DNA from: Caballeronia sp. SEWSISQ10-4 2
GTDB lineage: Bacteria; Pseudomonadota; Gammaproteobacteria; Burkholderiales; Burkholderiaceae
DNA: 64,000 nucleotides
Assembly (NCBI RefSeq): GCF_030464885.1
Contig: NZ_JALPRJ010000018.1
Location: 1-64,000, forward strand
Direction of reading: 5' to 3'
Both the position numbers and the translations under genes were made by a program. The notes beneath the pieces are model-generated. The model was given only the letters and a program-made list of their open reading frames with translations, was not told the DNA's origin and searched no databases. Position 1 is the stretch's first letter. Every line of letters starts with the position of its first letter. Below, piece by piece: positions 5,409 to 61,909 of the stretch.

Positions 5409-5524
5409 CACTTTGAGATATTGCTCGGCACTCAGCGCACGCAGCGAAAAAGGGGGAGTGTCTACCGCGAGTTGGCGCCAAACGGCTGCGCGTTGCTGAC
5501 TCTTGATGCTGAGGATGTCGATCT

Positions 5525-7061
5525 CCTTGGAGGCTGACGTTTACCCACAAGTAGGAGTCATCCGTCTTGTCTGAATACCCGATACATCTGGGTAATTTCA
5601 TGCAGGGCAAGAAAGCCGCGCCACATGACAGTGGGTCCGGGTGGGCGGTCGTGTTTGCGATTCAGATAGCCACCGAGCCTGGCGATCCATAGCACAGCCT
5701 GGGCCAGCGACGGAGGTTGGGCAGGCAGTTTGGTTGTGTTGTGCGTGCGGCAGTACAACGCATGCCACTCGATCGGCTGCAGCAACACGTCACATGGCAA
5801 ATCGCTATCAAGGCGGGCGAGCAACGTCGCGTACATGATGCGCCAGCCGATCACCGCAAACAATGCAGTGGCGCGCACAAAGCGATCGAGGTTGGCGAAT
5901 TGGCGCGCCTCGACGCGACAGCCGCTCTTCAGGACCCGATGCCACGATTCGATCGTCCATCGGCGTGCGTACCACGCCAGGCGTTCAAGCGCTTCTTCAC
6001 ACGTGTGCGTGGGCACCGAGCTCAGCAGCAGCCATTCGAGAGGCTCGACGCCTTCGGTGACATCGGTCTCCAGCGCATGGATCACGAAGACTTCAGCATC
6101 CACAAGCCTGTCGCGGCGACGGTGACCGGGCGCACGCAGCCGCACCGGCGCACAGCGCAGCATCAGCCGGGCGGTACGCGCCGATCTCGCACCAGTGGCA
6201 GGCAACTGAAGTTGCGTCTCGCCCAACACGGGTGCCACCGCAATAGCTTCCCACAGATATTTTTCTGGGTGATCGACACTACGGTTCCACGACGCACGGA
6301 CCAGCCAGTCCACACCAGTTGGCCGCTCGGCTATGAACACGTCGTAGACGTCGCTTTCACGATCACTTACAGCGACGATGTGTGTATCCGGACAGCGCGT
6401 CTTTAGTGCAGCAAGATGTTCGAGGCCCTCGAGCCATTTCACACTCTCCTTCTCGCGGATGGGCTTGTGCCGGCGCTGTCGTCCCTTGCCGTACTCATCA
6501 GGTGGTCGTACCCAGGTCTTCATGCCCAGCACGCCCAGAGGTAAGCCCTCGGGCGCTACCGCAAGCAGACTGTGCATCATGAAACCACGCAGATTGTTAC
6601 CAGTGCCATGGCCCATTCCTTCGGTCGCGCAAAGATGCGACAGATTGAATTCGGTCGTGTCCTGCACGGCCAGTACGACGGGCATCTGTTGCATGCGGCC
6701 AAGCGTTTGACCGATATGCGCAGCGAGCACCCCGTCAGGATCAACCTTCCGGTTGTCGAAGAAGCGGTACGCGGCCTTGAGCCCAGGGCCATCAAGCGAC
6801 TGCGGGAACGAGCACTGCGGGCTCTGCGACAGCTGGCGCGCCAGCGTAACCAGACGCTGCGTCAGACGCGCATCGCCCAGATTAGCCGCGCCAAATTCGT
6901 CGTTTGCCCAGTCGTCCACATCATCCACATCCGTCATCGGTTTCCCACCGCAAAGAGCCACCGATGCGAAAGTTAACATCGCCGTGCGCAGTTCACAAGC
7001 ACGGCAAAGCAACCTCATCTCCATGCAGATCTGAGATGTGGGTAATCGTCAGCCTTGGAGG
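5525..7061 (-). mobile_element. IS4-family, IS50-type insertion sequence with 9-bp target duplication
   Basis: The element spans 5534-7052 (1519 bp) with imperfect 19-bp ends: CTGACGTTTACCCACAAGT on the left, and CTGACGATTACCCACATCT as reverse complement on the right. These resemble the CTGACTCTTATACACAAGT outer end of IS50/Tn5. A perfect direct repeat CCTTGGAGG flanks it (5525-5533 and 7053-7061), the 9-bp duplication typical of this group. It carries one intact transposase gene on the minus strand, so it may be active. Confidence 0.93.
5558..6937 (-). CDS. IS4-family (IS50 group) transposase
   Basis: 459 residues from ATG 6937, which opens MTDVDDVDDWANDEFG like the family; an upstream in-frame ATG at 7024 would add 29 unlikely residues. 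The DNA-binding N-terminus (FGAANLGDARLTQRL) is followed by catalytic aspartates in AVQDTTEFNL and VAVSDRESDVYDVF, and by the YREK-type box YARRWTIESWHRVLKSGCRVE-like segment carrying the catalytic glutamate. It cuts and inserts the surrounding element. Length, termini and target duplication are all intact, so a recent insertion is likely. Confidence 0.93.
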   Translation of the reverse strand: MTDVDDVDDWANDEFGAANLGDARLTQRLVTLARQLSQSPQCSFPQSLDGPGLKAAYRFFDNRKVDPDGVLAAHIGQTLGRMQQMPVVLAVQDTTEFNLSHLCATEGMGHGTGNNLRGFMMHSLLAVAPEGLPLGVLGMKTWVRPPDEYGKGRQRRHKPIREKESVKWLEGLEHLAALKTRCPDTHIVAVSDRESDVYDVFIAERPTGVDWLVRASWNRSVDHPEKYLWEAIAVAPVLGETQLQLPATGARSARTARLMLRCAPVRLRAPGHRRRDRLVDAEVFVIHALETDVTEGVEPLEWLLLSSVPTHTCEEALERLAWYARRWTIESWHRVLKSGCRVEARQFANLDRFVRATALFAVIGWRIMYATLLARLDSDLPCDVLLQPIEWHALYCRTHNTTKLPAQPPSLAQAVLWIARLGGYLNRKHDRPPGPTVMWRGFLALHEITQMYRVFRQDG

Positions 7062-47829: not shown

Positions 47830-47950
47830 TGGCCAGCTTCAGTTGGAGAAGGCAGCACGGGAATTCCGCACCTATACCGGGGCCAACCAAGCGTTCATTC
47901 CGAACTACGGCGACCGCTACCGGCACGACGAGACGATCTCCACAGGTGAG
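47830..47950 (+). pseudogene. Transposase scrap (ISKra4-like)
   Basis: The plus frame reads QLEKAAREFRTYTGANQAFI, then PNYGDRYRHDETIST, resembling the C-terminal part of ISKra4-type transposases from memory. It is cut on both sides by a relaxase fragment and an integrase fragment on the other strand. Confidence 0.45.
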
Positions 47951-48569
47951 GGTGGTGCTTGACCGCCGGCCCCGCTGCTGCAATGGCGCGCAGCTCCGAC
48001 GCAGGATTGTTTTCGCATAATCCCCGCGCGATGGCCTGGCTGAAGATTTGTTTCAGCCAGCCCCGGGTCTTTTTCGCGACGTTGTGCGCATCGCGTTTTT
48101 CGATGCGTTCCTGCAGCCTGGCGCAGTCCGCATGCGTGATGTGCTGTAACGGCTTGTCACCCAGCTCAGGAAGAATGTCCTTGTCCAGATAGGTGCGAAT
48201 CTTGGCGAGCGTTGCGGCAGCGCGCCCCGCCTCAGCCTTATGCTTGTACCAGTATTCGGCGGCGGCCTTGAACGTGTTGATTTGGACCAGTGCGTCGCGA
48301 TGTTTCTCGTCTCGCCGCTTTTTGCGGGGATCGATGCCATTTGCGACCAAGGCTCGGCATTCTGCCGCTCGCTCCCGAGCTTGCTGTAGCGAAACGGCGG
48401 GATAAGTGCCGAGCGAGATGCGCGGTTGTTTCCCGCCCATTCTGTAACGGAAGTGCCAATACCTATGATCGTCTGGAGCGATCCACAGGGTCAGGCCACC
48501 GCCGTCGGGAATCCCGTAGGCCTTCGGGCGAGGTTTGGCTGCTTGGGCTTGGCGCGCAGTGAGGAACAT
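47951..48569 (-). pseudogene. P4-type tyrosine integrase lacking its catalytic domain
   Basis: From ATG 48569 the product has the arm-binding N-terminus (KAYGIPDGGGLTLWIAPDDH, YRMGGKQPRISLGTYPAVSL) and the core-binding domain (TFKAAAEYWYKHKAEAG to NNPASELRAIAAAGPAVKHH). At about 47951 the frame enters foreign sequence (WRSSRRAGSGRRSSE). The RHRY catalytic domain of about 200 residues is missing, so the enzyme is dead. It marks an old genomic-island end. Confidence 0.85.
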
Positions 48570-50029: not shown

Positions 50030-50061
50030 GTCGGGCATGCGTAAATTACAGCATGCCCGAC
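50030..50061 (+). promoter_or_regulatory. Large dyad just upstream of the 25-codon ORF
   Basis: TCGGGCATGC and GCATGCCCGA are perfect inverted arms of at least 10 bases (11 with flanking G/C) around a short centre that itself contains GTAA-A-TTAC. It ends about 22 bases before ATG 50084. There is no T-run, so an operator or a leader hairpin is more likely than a simple terminator. It does not match a standard 20-bp lux box. Confidence 0.55.
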
Positions 50062-50083
50062 CGACGAATTTGGGGAGCGACTC

Positions 50084-50161
50084 ATGAATCGACATGGATT
50101 GGTTAACCTGCCGATCACCTTCGAGCAGACCGACGAGTACGATGCTAATCTAATCATCTAA
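50084..50161 (+). CDS. 25-residue peptide ORF, possible signal or modified-peptide precursor
   Basis: ATG 50084 follows GGGGAG at ideal distance and encodes MNRHGLVNLPITFEQTDEYD then ANLII, stop at 50159-50161. It lies between the dyad and the zinc-ribbon gene (46 bases apart) and is the first frame of the operon. It has no cysteine and no signal sequence; the end is acidic then hydrophobic. It could be a regulatory leader, a precursor peptide or a microprotein. No family is recognised. Confidence 0.5.
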   Translation: MNRHGLVNLPITFEQTDEYDANLII

Positions 50162-50206
50162 CGTTTATCGTCGTAAAGCGATTGTCTTTCAGGAGGCTAT
50201 CGAATC

Positions 50207-50485
50207 ATGACAAACGTAATTTCCGAACTGGGGCTTGTTTGCCCCAAATGCAGCGTCCCCTTGGACGATGGTTGGGAAGTGCTTGGTGCGGGAGAAACTC
50301 ACCGGCTCACTTGTCAGTACTGCCACACACAGTTTAATGGTTTGATTGTCGAATGTGACGCTTGCGGATCCGAAGACTTCATCACTAGTGTCTCGCAAAT
50401 CGATCCGGAGACGGTCGCCTGCTCCTCATGTGGTCATCGCAACTATCGAAGGGGAGTCGGCGATGACGAAGAGTCTTATTTTTGA
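50207..50485 (+). CDS. Double zinc-ribbon protein of unknown function
   Basis: 92 residues from ATG 50207, directly after an AGGAGG site. Four CxxC pairs (C12/C15, C36/C39, C50/C53, C72/C75) indicate two zinc ribbons. The acidic tail ends DDEESYF. Such small proteins can bind nucleic acid, or act as rubredoxin-like or scaffold partners of metal enzymes. Its end overlaps the next gene by 23 bases. Being in an operon with a LuxR regulator and a di-iron membrane oxidase, it might serve as electron carrier or regulator; this is inference. Confidence 0.72.
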   Translation: MTNVISELGLVCPKCSVPLDDGWEVLGAGETHRLTCQYCHTQFNGLIVECDACGSEDFITSVSQIDPETVACSSCGHRNYRRGVGDDEESYF

Positions 50486-50723
50486 GCGCGGCCTTAATGT
50501 TGGCAGAGAGCATGTTGTGTTAAGACTTTTCCGAACGACGCATGGCTTCTCTCTTGAACGACGGGTTATTGAAAGGGATCAAGCGGCATTTGTTCAGGTC
50601 CTTCCGATAACTGCTTTGGGCGACTTGCATCGATTCGCGATTGCTGACCCCTATTCGAAAGAGCTCGCGGCACTGTATTACGAAGTACGGCGTCACCTTT
50701 TGGAAAATCACGTGGGGGAATAG
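50463..50723 (+). CDS. Small protein of unknown function
   Basis: 86 residues from ATG 50463 (GGGGAG upstream). It begins MTKSLIFERGLNVGREHVVL and contains an alternating sheet-like middle (LERRVIERDQAAFVQVLP), then a helical end with ELAALYYEVRRHLLENHVGE. No motif or family is recognised. The reading overlaps the zinc-ribbon gene and is followed after 28 bases by the LuxR gene, so expression is coupled. Confidence 0.65.
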   Translation: MTKSLIFERGLNVGREHVVLRLFRTTHGFSLERRVIERDQAAFVQVLPITALGDLHRFAIADPYSKELAALYYEVRRHLLENHVGE

Positions 50724-50751
50724 CTGGGCGAGCGCATTGGAGGGTGGACAA

Positions 50752-51492
50752 ATGACTACTCAACAAACGTATCCGGAAGTAAGCGGCCTTTTCGAAAAGC
50801 TGATGGCCGCCGAGGACGACTCTGAATTGGCAGAATGCGTTAGGTCACTTGTTATCGCACTCGGTGGAGAGTCGTATGTGTTTGTTTCGCTCCATCCCGG
50901 CGATACGACCGCCAACCGTGCCACCCATCGTTTTCTTATCGGGTGCCGCCCTGAATGGTGCCAGATGTATAACGCGAATAAGTGGTACATGACTGATCCA
51001 TTCTTGGAATATGCGCGAAGTAACACTGAACCGATCACAGGATCGGGGATCGTCACCAAAACGCAAGGCCAGCGCGATATGCTCACGGCGGCCTGTAATA
51101 ATGGCTTCAGAAGCGGGATCGTCGTGCCGGTCCATACCAGCGATACAGAACGCATGGGAGTTCTATACATCGGATCCGACGATAGCGAAGCGGTGGGGGA
51201 AAAAAGGCTCACGGCGCAGCGATTATATTTCAGGGCGCTTGCGCAGGAATTGCTGGATTGGTCTACCAGAATGACCAAGCGCGAAGTGCTTGCGGCGCAC
51301 GCCATTACCGAAAAGGATCTTCGCGTGGTGGGCTACGTTAAAGATGGATTTACTGCGGAAGACATTGCTCGTGAGATGGACGTCTCGGTCCAGACGGTCT
51401 ATGGGAATTACAAGAGAATCAAGGATAAGCTCGGCGTTTCGCACATTTCGGAAGCGGTTAAGTTCGCGGAAGTGAATGACCTTCTGGCGTAA
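50752..51492 (+). CDS. LuxR-type regulator with autoinducer-binding domain, solo
   Basis: 246 residues from ATG 50752 (GGAGGG upstream). Residues about 15-170 form the autoinducer-binding domain, with W69, Y73, D82, P83 and a later GFRSGIVVPVH matching conserved positions of acyl-homoserine-lactone receptors. The position of the second conserved Trp is Gly97 (ITGSG for xTWSG). Residues about 180-240 form the LuxR helix-turn-helix (DGFTAEDIAREMDVSVQTVY). No luxI synthase is in the window. It probably senses a non-standard ligand and controls this operon. Confidence 0.88.
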   Translation: MTTQQTYPEVSGLFEKLMAAEDDSELAECVRSLVIALGGESYVFVSLHPGDTTANRATHRFLIGCRPEWCQMYNANKWYMTDPFLEYARSNTEPITGSGIVTKTQGQRDMLTAACNNGFRSGIVVPVHTSDTERMGVLYIGSDDSEAVGEKRLTAQRLYFRALAQELLDWSTRMTKREVLAAHAITEKDLRVVGYVKDGFTAEDIAREMDVSVQTVYGNYKRIKDKLGVSHISEAVKFAEVNDLLA

Positions 51493-52507
51493 CTCGGGCA
51501 GAGCGTTCTGGCTGTCGCTTGCTTTGCCGACGGGCGCATGCGTCTCGTTCTTTGTTGGACACCCTTGGGTATTCGTGGCCGTAGTCCTGTTTGTTGTCCC
51601 GGTGTTCGATGCGGCGATAGGGCGGGGCGCTCCGGTGTCGGGGCAAGCCATCGAGAAAACGGCTGAAGATCAGGTTCCCTGCTGGTTTGCTCTTGCGTGG
51701 GCCTGTGCAGTCGCAATCGGTGTCTGCCGCGCCGCAAACGCGTCGTGGTCGTTGTTGATTGGACTTGCTGTCGGGTGCGGCGTGTTGAGCGCTACCGCGA
51801 TGGCGCACCTGCATGAATTAACGCACCGACCGGGCAGAAAATGGCAGTTGTTCAGTGACCTTGCATTCGTCGTTGCCGGCTATCCACATTATCGGATCGC
51901 GCACCGATTGCACCATCAAAACCTCGGGAATCCGCAGTTCGGCTCCACAGCATCATTGGGAACGTCGGTTTGGCGCCATATCGGGCACTCGTATGCAGTG
52001 GCGATTAAATCGTCGTTTACGCGGCGCTGTCACCCTGATGACAGGGTTCCGTTTAGTCTTTTTCTGAACACGCTTGTCGGGATATTGCTATTGGGTCTCG
52101 CCGCGTCGCTCCGATGGAGGGTTGCACTTTTCTACGTCGGGTACGCTGTTGTCAGCGTGTCTATTGTCGAAGCCGTTGGCTATATGCAGCACTACGGGTT
52201 CGTCTCAGACGTTTCTCGTACCGCCATTACATCCTGGGACGTCGACTTCTGGTTGTCGAACTGCCTTCTGGTGAACAACGGATTCCACAGCGCTCATCAT
52301 CAAGACGGGCTGATGCCATATCAGGGTCTTGCCGCGAAGCGAGCCATCTTGCCCGGAGGCTATTTTCAAATGCTATGGTTGACGCTTTTGCCACCCCTTT
52401 GGTTTTCAACGATGGACCGGAGGGCAAACGTCTTACTCAAGCGACAGCGGCGGCACTGCTCCGCTGTCAGAAATCAGGCATCCAGCGATGTTGGCGAGAT
52501 AGGCTGA
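51476..52507 (+). CDS. Integral-membrane di-iron desaturase/hydroxylase (AlkB/fatty-acid-desaturase family)
   Basis: 343 residues with several membrane helices and the histidine boxes of this superfamily: HLHELTHR, HYRIAHRLHHQN, YMQHYGF and NNGFHSAHHQ. The last two resemble the NYxEHYG and LQRHxxHH boxes of alkane hydroxylases. It would hydroxylate or desaturate a hydrophobic chain using two irons, oxygen and an electron donor. The start overlaps the LuxR stop by 17 bases, so translation is coupled; a quorum-type signal may be its product or trigger. Confidence 0.86.
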   Translation: MTFWRNSGRAFWLSLALPTGACVSFFVGHPWVFVAVVLFVVPVFDAAIGRGAPVSGQAIEKTAEDQVPCWFALAWACAVAIGVCRAANASWSLLIGLAVGCGVLSATAMAHLHELTHRPGRKWQLFSDLAFVVAGYPHYRIAHRLHHQNLGNPQFGSTASLGTSVWRHIGHSYAVAIKSSFTRRCHPDDRVPFSLFLNTLVGILLLGLAASLRWRVALFYVGYAVVSVSIVEAVGYMQHYGFVSDVSRTAITSWDVDFWLSNCLLVNNGFHSAHHQDGLMPYQGLAAKRAILPGGYFQMLWLTLLPPLWFSTMDRRANVLLKRQRRHCSAVRNQASSDVGEIG

Positions 52508-53491
52508 GTCAAGCGTTTTCAGCTCGATCGGGATGGCATGCCCGGTATGCGAATAATTTTTCTTCGTCGAGCGAACGTACGCTGGGTCGTAGTAGTCAAC
52601 CATGATGCTCTCGAAGAGCGCGTCAATCTCGCGGCGCTCGGCCAGCGACGCCCACTTTTGCAGCGTCACTCCGCCTACGAGTGCTCTTAGATAGCCGAGC
52701 TGCGCGACCAGACCTGCAGGGTCTCTCTCGAAGTGAGGATACTCGCGGTGCCACATCGCAACTCTTTCGGGCATCGGGGTATCGACGGCGTAGAGGCGTC
52801 CGCCATGCATTCTGCCGAACAGCGCGGTCGGCAACTGGACGCGACCGATTCGCTTACTCTCACTTTCAATCCACACCTGCTTTGACAGATCGAGAAGACT
52901 TATCTCAGCAAGCAGCAGGCTGTCGAATAATTTTTGACTAGGTTGTGCCCGTCCCGGGATCGCTCCAATGATTGAGCCGCGGTGTGACGCAAGCGCCTCC
53001 AGGTCAAGCACCTGCGCCCCTGCCTCACGCAACGCGAGCAGCAGTCGAGTTTTTCCGCAACCGGTTGGACCTGACAGCACATTGAGCTGCAATTGCGTGG
53101 GGATTTCATCAAGGGTTTGGCGCACCCAGGTGCGATAGCCCTTCCAGCCAGTCGGTAGTCTCTGGACCTTGTAGCCGATTGTTTCCAGGGCGTCCGTCCA
53201 AAGCTTGCTTCGCTTTCCGCCACGGGCGCAATAAACCAGAATCGAGGCTCGCCGGCTCGTCCGGAAAAACGGAAGCTCAAGGTGCCGTGCGATATTCCTC
53301 AGCGAGTAAGCAACCCCGATCTGATACGCCCGCATGGGATCGGTGCGGTGCGTAGTCCCGACCTCCGCATACTCGTCGTCAAAGACGACCGGAAGGTTAA
53401 TGGCCCCCGGCAAATGATCGTCAGCGAATTCACGCGGGCTTCGCGCGTCAATGATCAGGTCAAATTTGTTTAGGGTATCCAAATCGTACAT
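52433..53491 (-). CDS. mnmH: tRNA 2-selenouridine synthase-like protein (rhodanese plus P-loop)
   Basis: 352 residues. The N-terminal rhodanese domain shows DLIIDARSPREFADDHLPGA and the active-site cysteine in ILVYCARGGKRSK. The P-loop SGPTGCGKTRLLLALRE stands near residue 145, followed by LDLEALASHRGSIIGA. This is the domain order of MnmH (SelU/YbbB), which replaces sulfur with selenium in wobble 2-thiouridine through a geranylated intermediate. It converges on the desaturase gene and overlaps it by 75 bases. No selenophosphate synthase is visible here. Confidence 0.87.
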   Translation of the reverse strand: MYDLDTLNKFDLIIDARSPREFADDHLPGAINLPVVFDDEYAEVGTTHRTDPMRAYQIGVAYSLRNIARHLELPFFRTSRRASILVYCARGGKRSKLWTDALETIGYKVQRLPTGWKGYRTWVRQTLDEIPTQLQLNVLSGPTGCGKTRLLLALREAGAQVLDLEALASHRGSIIGAIPGRAQPSQKLFDSLLLAEISLLDLSKQVWIESESKRIGRVQLPTALFGRMHGGRLYAVDTPMPERVAMWHREYPHFERDPAGLVAQLGYLRALVGGVTLQKWASLAERREIDALFESIMVDYYDPAYVRSTKKNYSHTGHAIPIELKTLDSAYLANIAGCLISDSGAVPPLSLE

Positions 53492-57584: not shown

Positions 57585-57917
57585 ATGAAATCAGTATTAC
57601 TAATGTTTTTAAAAAAACGTGCCACGCGATGGAGGCGGTGTTTTTCTGCTGCTAGATCGATGGTCGGCATCACCCCGTTGCTGCTCCTGGCTTCGCCGGC
57701 GTATGCACAGCTCTCCCAAGTCAACACGCTGCTCACGACTATCCAGACAACGTTGCTTGGCATCGGAGGCGTCGTGTGCTCGATCTCGATCATCTGGGCT
57801 GGTTTCAAGATGATGTTTCAGCACGCACGGTTTGGCGATATCGCGAACGTGTTCATCGGTGGGCTTTTCGTTGGCTGCGCGACGGTCATCGCCGCGATGC
57901 TGATTCCGACAACGTAA
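57585..57917 (+). CDS. virB2: VirB2-like major pilin
   Basis: 110 residues from ATG 57585, with AGGAG before it. A long signal peptide is cleaved near ASPAYAQ, leaving a two-helix pilin: LLTTIQTTLLGIGGVVCSIS and FGDIANVFIGGLFVGCATVI. Size and hydrophobic pattern match VirB2/TrbC pilins, which polymerise into the conjugative pilus. VirB1 lies upstream and VirB3 follows after 23 bases. The N-terminal basic stretch KKRATRWRR is long but usual for this family. Confidence 0.86.
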   Translation: MKSVLLMFLKKRATRWRRCFSAARSMVGITPLLLLASPAYAQLSQVNTLLTTIQTTLLGIGGVVCSISIIWAGFKMMFQHARFGDIANVFIGGLFVGCATVIAAMLIPTT

Positions 57918-57940
57918 TCCAGGCGAGACGGAAGCGAATC

Positions 57941-58261
57941 ATGAACCCGTTAAAAGATCCCGTGTTCAAGGGCTGTACCAGGCCCGCGATGTTGTGGGGC
58001 GTGCCGCTCGTACCTTTCCTGATGATCGGCGGCGGCATGCTGATCCCGGCCATCTGGGCGCTCCTGGCGAGCCCTCCGGTCGGTGTCGCCCTGCTCTTTC
58101 TGATCATCCCGGTATTCATCACGATGCGCGCGATGACGCGTCACGACGATCAGCGCCTCGCGCAATGCGCGTTGCGTGTGCGGATGAAGTTCCGGCAGCG
58201 CAACTGCGGGTTCTGGGGCGCACACGCTTACGTGCCGGTCCGCCTGAAGAGGAGGGCCTGA
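57941..58261 (+). CDS. virB3: VirB3-like inner-membrane protein
   Basis: 106 residues from ATG 57941: MNPLKDPVFKGCTRPAMLWG followed by two membrane helices (VPLVPFLMIGGGMLIPAIWA and GVALLFLIIPVFITMRAM). The motif DPVFKGCTRPAM is typical of VirB3. It works with VirB4 in pilus biogenesis. It stops one base before the VirB4 start. Confidence 0.9.
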   Translation: MNPLKDPVFKGCTRPAMLWGVPLVPFLMIGGGMLIPAIWALLASPPVGVALLFLIIPVFITMRAMTRHDDQRLAQCALRVRMKFRQRNCGFWGAHAYVPVRLKRRA

Positions 58262-58262
58262 G

Positions 58263-60755
58263 ATGCGCGCCGAACCGAAACTTGCAGCGGTGGCGTACCG
58301 GGAAGTGCCGCTTGCAGACTTCATTCCCTATTCGACGCATTTGACCGATCACGTGATCAAGACGCGCGAAGGCGATTATCTGCGCATCTGGCGGATCGCG
58401 GGCATCGCGTTCGAGGCGGCGGACCCCGCAGATATCCTGGTGCGGCACGAGGGATTCAACCAGCTCGTCCGGGGATTGACCGGCGGTCACGTGGCGCTGT
58501 GGTCGCACCGCTTGCGCCGGCGCGTGTCGGATCACTTCGCTACACCCTACGGCGACCGATTCTGCCAGGAACTCGCGACGCGGTATTACGCGAGCTTCGC
58601 GGGCTACCGGATGATGGCCAACGAGCTGTACCTGACGCTCGTCTACCGCCCCAACCGAACAAGGCTAGGAAGGATCTTCAGTCAGGTGGCGCGTCGCACG
58701 CTCGACGATATCCGCCGGGATCAGCATCATGCCCTGAAGGCGATGGCAGAACTCGCCGCTCAGGTCGAATCGAGCTTGAGGCCCTACGATCCTGTGGCGC
58801 TCGGTGTCTATACGAAGCAGATCCAGTACACGCGGCGCCCGTGTAGATTTTCGTCGTCGCTCGAATTCCTCGGTTACCTCGTCAACGCCGTATGGGAGCC
58901 GGTGCCGGTGCCCGCGGGGCGGATCCGTGAGGCGTTGCCGACTTCACGTCTTTTTTTCGGCGCGGAGAAGGTCGAGATCCGGATGCCGGCGGCCACTCGT
59001 TACGCCGCACTGATCGATCTGAAGGACTACCCGGAGGAGACGGAGCCGGGGATGCTCAACGGACTGCTCTACGGTGACTTCGAGTACATCGAGACGCAGA
59101 GCTTCGCCATTCTCGATCGACCGAGCGCCAAGGAAGCGCTCGAGCGGCAGCGCAACCAACTGATTGCCGGCGAGGACGTAGCGGTGTCGCAGGTCGCGTC
59201 GATGGATCAGGCCCTCAACGACCTGATCAACGGCGACTTCGTTCTCGGCGAATACCACTATTCGCTCGCGGTGCTAGGCGACGCGGGCGAGGAGGTGGCA
59301 AAGCACGTTGCGAAGGCACGTACGCAACTGGCCGATGTTGGATTTCAGACCGCGCTGATCGACCTTGTGTCCGATGCGGCGTGGTTCGCGCAGCTGCCTG
59401 GCAACTGGGGCTACCGGCCACGTGAGGCGAAGCTGACCTCGCGCAATTTCTGCGGACTTGGGAGCCTGCATAACTTCGCGACCGGAAAGCGCGACGGTAA
59501 CCCGTGGGGCGAGGCGATCACGATCGTCAAGACGCCGAGTGGCCAGCCGCTCTATTTGAACTTCCACGCGACGCCCGAGAAAAAGGACTCCGCTGACGAG
59601 AAGGCTCTCGCCAACACGCAGATCATCGGCCAGGCGGGTGCGGGCAAAACGGTGCTCGAACTGTTTCTGCTCGCGATGGCGATGAAGTACGGCGTCACTG
59701 CCGTGCTCTATGACAAGGACCGCGGCACCGAGATCGCGATCCGCGCGATGGGTGGCGTTTATACGGTGTTCCGTCGTGGTGAACCGACGGGGCTAAATCC
59801 GTTCCAGATCGAGCCGAGCGAAACCGTACTCGACTTCTGGGAGCGACTGGTCCGCAAGCTGGTCGACAGCAGTTCGCCTCTGTCTTCCAAGGACGAGATG
59901 GATGTCTCGCGCGCAGTGCGGGAAGTGGCCCGGATGGCGAGGCCCCTACGGCGCTTGTCGATGGTGCGCCAGTTGCTTCCGAACGTGGGTGAGAACAGCC
60001 TGTACGCGCGGCTTGCCAAGTGGTGCGCTGGCGGCCGACTGGGATGGGTACTCGATAATCCCACCGACCGGCTCGATTTCACCCGGGCGCGTCTCTTTGG
60101 ATTCGACGATACCGAGCTTCTGGACGATGCGGAAGTGTCGACGCCGGTCACGATGTACTTGCTGCATCTGACTGAAAGCCTCATTGACGGGCGGCGCTTC
60201 GTCTATGTGATGACGGAATTCTGGAAGCGGCTCGGGGATCCCGTCTTCACGGATTTCGCGAACAACAAGCAGAAGACGATTCGCAAGCAGAACGGACTTG
60301 GCATCTTCGATACGCAGTCGCCAGCCGATGTGCTCAGAAGCGGTATCGCACGCGCGCTTATCGAGCAGACCGCAACCTTCTTCTTTCTGCCGAACCCGCG
60401 CGCGGACTACGACGATTACGTGCATGGCTTCAAGCTGACCGAGGCCGAATTCAACATTGTGCGCACTCTCGGCGAGAACAGCCGGCTCTTTCTCGTCAAG
60501 CAGGGGCACCGCTCGGCGATCGGCCGGCTGGACCTGGCAGGTCTCGGTGACGTGCTCGACGTGCTGTCGGGAACGACGGACAACGTTGAGCTGCTCGACA
60601 GGATTCGCGCACGGGTGGGTGACGCCCCCGAAGACTGGTTGCCCGTCTTCCACGAGGAGCTTGCGAAACGCCGGGTGAAGGAAGCAGGCACGCGCGCGGC
60701 TCAGCAGGTGATGGCGCAGCAGGCGACGGTGCAGGTGAGGGGAGGTGCGCAATGA
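58263..60755 (+). CDS. virB4: VirB4-family T4SS ATPase
   Basis: 830 residues, normal for the family. The N-terminal CagE/TrbE/VirB domain is followed by the Walker A GQAGAGKTVLELFLLAMAM (K462). Walker B-like RRFVYVMTEFWKRLGDPVF follows after about 190 residues, then a C-terminal domain. VirB4 energises pilus assembly and substrate transfer at the inner membrane. The 3' end overlaps VirB6 by four bases. The reading frame is intact throughout. Confidence 0.95.
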   Translation: MRAEPKLAAVAYREVPLADFIPYSTHLTDHVIKTREGDYLRIWRIAGIAFEAADPADILVRHEGFNQLVRGLTGGHVALWSHRLRRRVSDHFATPYGDRFCQELATRYYASFAGYRMMANELYLTLVYRPNRTRLGRIFSQVARRTLDDIRRDQHHALKAMAELAAQVESSLRPYDPVALGVYTKQIQYTRRPCRFSSSLEFLGYLVNAVWEPVPVPAGRIREALPTSRLFFGAEKVEIRMPAATRYAALIDLKDYPEETEPGMLNGLLYGDFEYIETQSFAILDRPSAKEALERQRNQLIAGEDVAVSQVASMDQALNDLINGDFVLGEYHYSLAVLGDAGEEVAKHVAKARTQLADVGFQTALIDLVSDAAWFAQLPGNWGYRPREAKLTSRNFCGLGSLHNFATGKRDGNPWGEAITIVKTPSGQPLYLNFHATPEKKDSADEKALANTQIIGQAGAGKTVLELFLLAMAMKYGVTAVLYDKDRGTEIAIRAMGGVYTVFRRGEPTGLNPFQIEPSETVLDFWERLVRKLVDSSSPLSSKDEMDVSRAVREVARMARPLRRLSMVRQLLPNVGENSLYARLAKWCAGGRLGWVLDNPTDRLDFTRARLFGFDDTELLDDAEVSTPVTMYLLHLTESLIDGRRFVYVMTEFWKRLGDPVFTDFANNKQKTIRKQNGLGIFDTQSPADVLRSGIARALIEQTATFFFLPNPRADYDDYVHGFKLTEAEFNIVRTLGENSRLFLVKQGHRSAIGRLDLAGLGDVLDVLSGTTDNVELLDRIRARVGDAPEDWLPVFHEELAKRRVKEAGTRAAQQVMAQQATVQVRGGAQ

Positions 60756-61909
60756 GCGGCCTCTTCACGGCAATCGGCGGGACCCTGGAAAATGGCACGG
60801 CTACCTACGTGACGAACGTGTCGGCGGCGCTCTCCAGCGCACTGACGCCGGTCGTGACCACCGCCGTCACGATCTGGATCGTTACCTACGGACTTGCAGT
60901 GGTGCGTGGCGAGGCGCATGAATCCGTGCCCGCTTTTACGTGGCGCGCACTGAAGATCGCCATCACGCTCGCGTTTGCGCTCAGTACCGGCTTGTACCAA
61001 GGGCAGGTGGTCACGGCGATCAACGGCGCGACGGCGGGGCTCGCCCAGACGATCCAGAACGCGGCCGCCGTGACTGGCGCCGGCAATCCGGGGTGTGGCT
61101 CGGTCAACGGCAGCAGCGTGATCGGCGCGAGCGCCACCAGCATCTACCAAACGCTCGACTGTTACGACCAGCAGATCGATCTCGTGATGGACGCCTATTT
61201 CGACAAGGCCGCGCACGAAGGACTCGGTTTCAGCATGGTAGCGGCAGCTATTGCCGATTTCGCGTGTGGACTGATCGCGGCGATGGGCGGGGTGATCTTC
61301 CTAATCGTGCTCGCGTTCGAGGTGGTGATGGCGAGGATGCTGCTCGATCTCGTCCTCGGGCTTGGCCCGATTTTCATCGCATGCGCCGCATTCGGGCCGA
61401 CGGCGCGGTTCTTCGAGGCGTGGACTGCAAAGGTCGCCAATTACGCGCTACTGCAGGTGCTGGTCGCTGCCTTTCTCGGCATGGCGCTGACCGCTTTTTC
61501 CGCCTATCTCGCGCCACTGCATGTTACCGGCGCCTCCCCCACATCGAATGCTGCGTCGCTGATGTCGGGCGTGACCAATGCGCTGGAGGGATCAGCGGCT
61601 GACGTGGCGGCGATCGGCCTCTTCGTTACCGGCGTGTTTTTGGCGATGATCGCCTGGCAGTTGCCGGCCGTCGCGTCCGGGCTTGCCGGAGGCGCAACCC
61701 TGTCCGGTTTCGGCGCGTTCGTCGCCGGCGTGACATCCCGACGGCTCGCCAGCGCGCTCGGCCGCGCACTTGCCGGCGGGGGCGGCGGGCCGCGGCCCGG
61801 CGGAACGATCCATAACCAGGCGGGTTCCGGCGGGAGCCCGTCCGGGGACCGGTCGATGCCGGCCTATCAGCGGGCTGCCCGGGAACACCTCGGGCAGCAG
61901 GACGAGTGA
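60752..61909 (+). CDS. virB6: VirB6-like polytopic membrane protein
   Basis: 385 residues with about six membrane helices (for example VVTTAVTIWIVTYGLAVV, ALKIAITLAFALSTGLY, FACGLIAAMGGVIFLIVLAF). The TrbL/VirB6 domain has ARMLLDLVLGLGPIFIACAA then FFEAWTAKVANYALLQVLVA. The C-terminal 70 residues are glycine/proline-rich and cytoplasmic. It forms the inner-membrane pore of the T4SS. It precedes rather than follows the VirB5-like gene. Confidence 0.9.
   Translation: MSGLFTAIGGTLENGTATYVTNVSAALSSALTPVVTTAVTIWIVTYGLAVVRGEAHESVPAFTWRALKIAITLAFALSTGLYQGQVVTAINGATAGLAQTIQNAAAVTGAGNPGCGSVNGSSVIGASATSIYQTLDCYDQQIDLVMDAYFDKAAHEGLGFSMVAAAIADFACGLIAAMGGVIFLIVLAFEVVMARMLLDLVLGLGPIFIACAAFGPTARFFEAWTAKVANYALLQVLVAAFLGMALTAFSAYLAPLHVTGASPTSNAASLMSGVTNALEGSAADVAAIGLFVTGVFLAMIAWQLPAVASGLAGGATLSGFGAFVAGVTSRRLASALGRALAGGGGGPRPGGTIHNQAGSGGSPSGDRSMPAYQRAAREHLGQQDE

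Follow-up and report, generated by a model that had tools for sequence, protein, structure and literature searches.

The DNA stretch analysed here (the window) runs from base 1 to base 64000 of contig C99 (130,771 bases); the genome measures 9.44 Mb and, judging by the best matches, has Paraburkholderia and Caballeronia as near relatives. Four tightly packed genes lie within it, encoding a double zinc-ribbon protein (ZR), an 86-residue protein (P86), a LuxR-type regulator and an AlkB-like membrane di-iron oxidase (Table 1). Consecutive genes share 23 nt (ZR and P86), lie 28 nt apart (P86 and luxR) and share 17 nt (luxR and the oxidase gene). In the 23 loci used for overlap measurement (all but L033 and L036), the ZR/P86 overlap was 20 or 23 nt and the luxR/oxidase overlap 17 or 23 nt in every case; P86 and luxR ranged between overlapping by 17 nt and lying 38 nt apart. 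The dN/dS values of 0.04-0.31 per gene (seven pairs; six for the oxidase) indicated that the four frames are genes under selection and not chance frames. The initial annotation was right about the tight packing of these four frames and about the overlap of a LuxR-type gene with a hydrophobic-chain oxidase gene, which is kept in relatives.

Table 1. Position of the four genes, of the elements preceding them and of neighbouring genes in the window.
Feature	Position	Strand	Remarks
Perfect inverted repeat, 11-bp arms, 10-bp spacer (32 bp)	50030..50061	.	specific to the window
25-codon ORF	50084..50161	+	not supported as a member of the system
ZR, 92-aa double zinc-ribbon protein	50207..50485	+	weak zinc-ribbon matches under cut-off; four CxxC
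P86, 86-aa protein, predicted PUR-repeat-like fold	50463..50723	+	23-nt overlap with ZR
LuxR-type regulator, 246 aa, autoinducer-binding domain and GerE HTH	50752..51492	+	PF03472 E 3.8e-14, PF00196 E 1.1e-7
AlkB-like membrane di-iron oxidase, 343 aa	51476..52507	+	PF00487 E 2.2e-16
mnmH paralogue (tRNA 2-selenouridine/geranyl synthase), convergent	52433..53491	-	NCBIfam equivalog NF008752, 391 bits (cut-off 266)
VirB3 of T4SS	57776..58261	+	PF05101 E 1.7e-19
VirB4 ATPase of T4SS	58263..60755	+	PF03135 E 8.8e-44
VirB6 of T4SS	60752..61909	+	PF04610 E 5.5e-31

The 25-codon ORF, initially counted as an operon member, fared differently in the six closest relatives and in a short-peptide search. 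Frames of 23 and 16 codons, which stop near the same place and whose ends are loosely similar to it, were found in L021 and L029, and nothing resembling it lies at that place in L022-L025; the search, covering the 400 nt 5′ of ZR in 23 loci, returned the window itself and one chance-level match only. With no consistent counterpart in relatives, a role of the peptide as signal precursor is unsupported; a fast-changing leader ORF would still be conceivable. The large dyad said to head the unit is real, having perfect arms, occurring in 0 of 100 shuffles and having no second exact match of its arms in the 9.4-Mb genome. In the 27 other loci, however, its best look-alikes carry 4-7 mismatches per 22 arm bases, so that it is not a conserved operator and was rejected as such. 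A scan of the 160 nt 5′ of ZR in 17 representatives found isolated dyads in five, none of them shared.

The genes for ZR, P86, LuxR and oxidase (the module) stand in one order in 25/25 loci, comprising the window, four plasmids and 20 contig loci. The plasmids or plasmid records, on which tblastn found oxidase and ZR together, are those of Caballeronia sp. SBC2, Paraburkholderia fungorum, P. caffeinilytica and Pandoraea faecigallinarum. For the contig loci, genome contigs were scanned with the LuxR alignment by way of two peptide patterns; 48 stretches matched and 20 encoded a relative, all 20 carrying the four genes in the same order. L013 and L014 are repeats of L027 and L026. The 25 loci were chosen for closeness to the window proteins and are not all independent, L011 and L033 having identical profile scores and L010 and L036 almost identical ones. 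The oxidase of L034 is split between two frames. Conserved synteny thus holds strongly for four of the five genes initially grouped together, but not for the 25-codon ORF.

Searching plasmids with mnmH gave 38 records and led to three outgroup plasmids, from Massilia putida, Collimonas arenae and Polaromonas sp. JS666, which carry ZR, LuxR, an AlkB-like oxidase and a convergent mnmH, ZR being present without a listed gene in two of them. Their relaxase types differ (MOBP, MOBF and MOBH). P86 was not recognised by its profile in these three modules, and the small proteins 5′ of ZR in Massilia and Collimonas were not shown to be P86 homologues (profile E above 1). Look-alike small proteins of about 89-109 aa are encoded in the Collimonas and Massilia plasmids at L044:9411-9680 (-) and 5461-5790 (-) and at L043:9345-9623 (-) and 5461-5766 (-); one precedes ZR and one precedes the virB genes.

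At the level of the order, 399 genomes were searched with the LuxR profile and for the mnmH type of the module, only the first few candidates per genome being scored. Six genomes matched the LuxR profile at E up to 1e-40. Of these, two have the module, two have P86 alone and G135 has a P86 at a distance of 7 kb; the sixth is G192. The latter has six LuxR genes of the module type (one partial) on five contigs (L070-L074), with no P86, ZR or oxidase found near them, which indicates that the receptor family also works outside the module. Close to two tandem LuxR genes of this genome, repetitive frames with the look of a CRISPR array (recurring SLPHRQLRK / VHCRTGSLE) were observed at L073:5600-7592.

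The surroundings of the module contain genes of conjugation. In the window the VirB genes start 5.3 kb downstream of the module, with mnmH lying between, and VirB10-, VirB11- and VirD4-type genes (PF03743, PF00437, PF02534) are found beyond it on the same contig (L015). VirB genes lie within the stretch in 19/23 loci measured (21/25 counting L033 and L036), and no VirB gene was found in the stretch covered for L009, L024, L025 and L029 (4/25). T4SS genes are also annotated near the module in Massilia and Collimonas, as are traD and mobH in Polaromonas. This nearness could reflect hitch-hiking on the plasmid backbone.

The LuxR protein has both domains of the family, PF03472 and PF00196. No luxI lies beside luxR; the two luxI matches of the genome sit on other contigs (C196 and C78) and none was found on the module contig. 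The AHL-contact positions were set by alignment to an RhlR variant and are given in TraR numbering. Among 26 proteins, Y61, D70 and P71 are kept in 26/26 and W57 in 23/26, being replaced by Leu in the three outgroup proteins; position 85 is never Trp (0/26), position 113 is Gly in 16/26, and the full conserved set of AHL-contact residues does not occur in the LuxR proteins of the module.

P86 has no Pfam, NCBIfam or PHROGs match. Its AF2 model (pLDDT 91.4, pTM 0.81) gave PURA/Pur-alpha as top rows in Foldseek and VIA, and a PUR-repeat-like fold is therefore predicted. P86 stands immediately before LuxR in genomes G076 and G428 and is fused to LuxR in five plasmids (L078-L082, from P. fungorum, Caballeronia SBC2, Paraburkholderia FT54, Robbsia and P. 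largidicola), four of which have annotated T4SS genes at most 5 kb away; no oxidase is annotated at the fused loci beside T4SS genes. Among bacteria, Bpur of Borrelia is a PUR-domain regulator (PMC3764826). P86 differs from such PUR-domain proteins, including human PURA, in that it has no sequence-family match and adjoins LuxR or is fused with it. A TraM-like antiactivator role for P86 was considered, with no evidence for it.

Several relatives of the oxidase are annotated as fatty acid desaturases. In 25 aligned oxidases (L033, L034 and L036 were left out) nine histidines are invariant (H113, H117, H143, H146, H147, H239, H271, H274 and H275), as is one glutamate. The only sequence relatives found in the PDB are two alkane monooxygenases, 8sbb and 8f6t, the family profile aligning with 8sbb over the length of the oxidase (E 4e-40). 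Nine histidines and overall profile are thus shared with the AlkB alkane monooxygenases, but in the tree the module oxidases appear to form a separate branch (16 module oxidases apart from 10 AlkB/XylM-type rows, support 89/87, not starred), and no rubredoxin gene is annotated beside them in seven plasmid regions. AlkB needs a rubredoxin-type electron donor, and for this reason ZR was considered for that role. Its eight cysteines (four CxxC) are invariant in 26/26 homologues, including those of Massilia, Collimonas and Polaromonas; no rubredoxin appeared among the 25 of 29 Pfam rows listed, nor in NCBIfam, and the fold search was uninformative. Neither families nor fold supported ZR as a rubredoxin-like donor, although with so weak a structure model (pLDDT 70.7) the role is still conceivable. 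Separately, plasmid pPNAP01 of Polaromonas naphthalenivorans carries a 2,259-bp CDS annotated as fatty acid desaturase (L046:4195-6453), part of which is covered by the AlkB-like match.

The initial annotation knew of no described system with this content, and in the open-licence PMC literature we found no description of the ZR-P86-LuxR-oxidase gene set. The pairing of a LuxR solo with a desaturase gene is, however, in print: in excerpts from PMC4338825 and PMC10134790, QscR has as neighbour a so-called desaturase gene encoded on the opposite strand, and in excerpts from PMC7683790 a desaturase-containing operon lies downstream of PcsR2. Such pairing alone is therefore not new. This comparison is one of gene neighbourhood and the name desaturase implies no kinship to the module oxidase; there the desaturase is merely a neighbour, whereas the module oxidase gene overlaps luxR in the same direction and is accompanied by ZR and P86.

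One explanation of the oxidase is a catabolic or detoxifying operon, in which LuxR would sense an environmental hydrophobic compound (alkane, terpenoid or plant lipid) and induce the AlkB-like enzyme, the T4SS being plasmid backbone. The two alkane monooxygenases as sole PDB relatives agree with it, as do the OmpW-family outer-membrane genes adjoining the module in the Massilia and Polaromonas plasmids. So does a finding in three of six plasmid alkB stretches (L084, L086 and L090), all three clusters of alkB, rubredoxin and aldehyde dehydrogenase, where a large LuxR-C-terminal regulator is encoded divergently. However, the annotation of seven module-bearing plasmid regions contains neither rubredoxin nor alcohol/aldehyde dehydrogenase, whereas rubredoxin and aldehyde dehydrogenase are both present in 5/6 of the alkB stretches. 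The fused PUR-LuxR relatives, moreover, adjoin T4SS genes with no oxidase annotated, and the mnmH paralogue does not fit catabolism. We consider this explanation unlikely, though worth keeping in mind.

The mnmH paralogue, whose 3′ end overlaps that of the oxidase gene by 75 nt in the window, adjoins the module in 22/23 loci measured (24/25 with L033 and with L036, where it is only a 65-codon piece) and in 3/3 outgroup plasmids. In a set of 23 loci compared for its orientation, it is convergent downstream of the module in 10 and co-directional upstream in 13. In the 19 of 21 genomes searched for mnmH and selD copies (L022 and L031 were left out), mnmH is one of two or more copies and selD is above cut-off in all 19. 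A replacement of a missing chromosomal copy was accordingly rejected. The window protein scores as MnmH/SelU above the equivalog cut-off and keeps the rhodanese cysteine (C-x-x-G, C-A-R-G) and the Walker A motif (GPTGCGKT), whose roles in MnmH are treated in excerpts from PMC4830565; it differs as an extra copy, 40-46% identical to the other copy of the same genomes.

On this conserved neighbourhood, extra copy and intact motifs a geranyl-signal loop could be built. MnmH uses geranyl pyrophosphate and would free thiogeraniol, which excerpts from PMC9105526 describe as displaced from tRNA upon selenation; the AlkB-like enzyme would oxidise the C10 group and the predicted PUR-like/LuxR pair would read the product. 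Among the 399 genomes, however, the module-type mnmH (E up to 1e-90) occurs in five, three of which have no module gene within the surrounding 15-19 kb, and the Pandoraea cassette (L012) has no mnmH nearby; a strict tie of mnmH to the module was therefore rejected. Geranylated tRNA is moreover not enriched at membranes according to excerpts from PMC4830565, which speaks against its being the substrate of a membrane oxidase, and MnmH and the oxidase are not known to be linked biochemically. The loop appears improbable, and its fullest form still more so, namely a new signalling principle in which a geranyl-derived C10 compound (e.g. thiogeraniol), supplied by MnmH, converted by the oxidase and then read by the PUR-LuxR regulator, licenses conjugation; if true, it would tie plasmid transfer to the sulfur/selenium status of tRNA. 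Remodelling of membrane lipids for mating or surface exclusion, with the AlkB-like enzyme modifying envelope lipids of plasmid carriers and LuxR sensing lipid state, would suit a membrane enzyme with a desaturase-family match near T4SS genes, but is hardly likely, the solved relatives found being hydroxylases and not desaturases and no lipid gene being recognised among the subset of conserved neighbour clusters annotated.

We favour, with a rough probability of 0.45, a plasmid-borne chemical-sensing module for conjugation. P86, predicted to be PUR-like, and LuxR would act jointly as a PUR-LuxR regulator split over two proteins, responding to a ligand that would be hydrophobic and is unlikely to be a standard AHL. 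The AlkB-like enzyme, which may be produced in step with LuxR through the gene overlap, would oxidise the ligand or its precursor and so set or reset the signal. The zinc ribbon may be an accessory part binding nucleic acid or protein, the mnmH paralogue may serve the same regulon, and the neighbouring VirB/VirD4 transfer operon would be the output. Against this reading speak the missing common dyad 5′ of ZR in the 17 representatives, the T4SS genes lying near the operon but outside it, the four loci with no VirB gene in the stretch covered, the LuxR genes of G192 and the absence of mnmH near the Pandoraea cassette. Relative to the signal system of LuxR, oxidase and peptide proposed initially, the LuxR/oxidase overlap stands, the peptide and the dyad do not, and quorum-type control, with luxI on other contigs and part of the AHL-contact set missing, is no more than conceivable; the main context, namely mnmH, the transfer genes and the split PUR-LuxR arrangement, had been missed.

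LuxR-type control of plasmid transfer is already known from rhizobia and Agrobacterium. Excerpts from PMC10134790 and PMC4338825 place BisR beside trbI and have it act on traR and plasmid transfer, and in excerpts from PMC13055273 an AHL-deaf TraR is essential for transfer of pLPU83a; the RcgA/RcgR system of the same paper is another plasmid-transfer system, which nothing in these excerpts links to our gene set. With TraR/TraM and BisR the module shares a plasmid LuxR-type regulator near transfer genes and a small partner protein. It differs in having no luxI found on its contig, a changed AHL pocket, a small protein that is predicted to be PUR-like and is fused to LuxR in relatives, and a linked AlkB-like oxidase, zinc ribbon and mnmH. 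The strongest reading is that the module works like TraR or BisR, with a putative PUR-like partner and an oxidase of its own. The gene set has the appearance of a chemical switch for plasmid transfer, not described so far, in Burkholderia-related soil bacteria. It would be a Burkholderiales counterpart whose receptor has a PUR-like partner and which comes with its own hydrophobic-chain oxidase and a linked enzyme of tRNA modification; signals other than AHLs are thereby indicated, and the transfer decision of large soil plasmids gains a concrete genetic handle.

The fused PUR-LuxR loci may represent a sister plasmid switch. The gene preceding the fused one bears the annotation diguanylate cyclase or EAL protein in all five, and in L079, L081 and L082 the fused gene is followed by a TRAP substrate-binding protein gene and pxpA (5-oxoprolinase). 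In the window itself, a phage-integrase-type frame with only arm-binding and central domains lies upstream of the module (47895-48569, minus strand).
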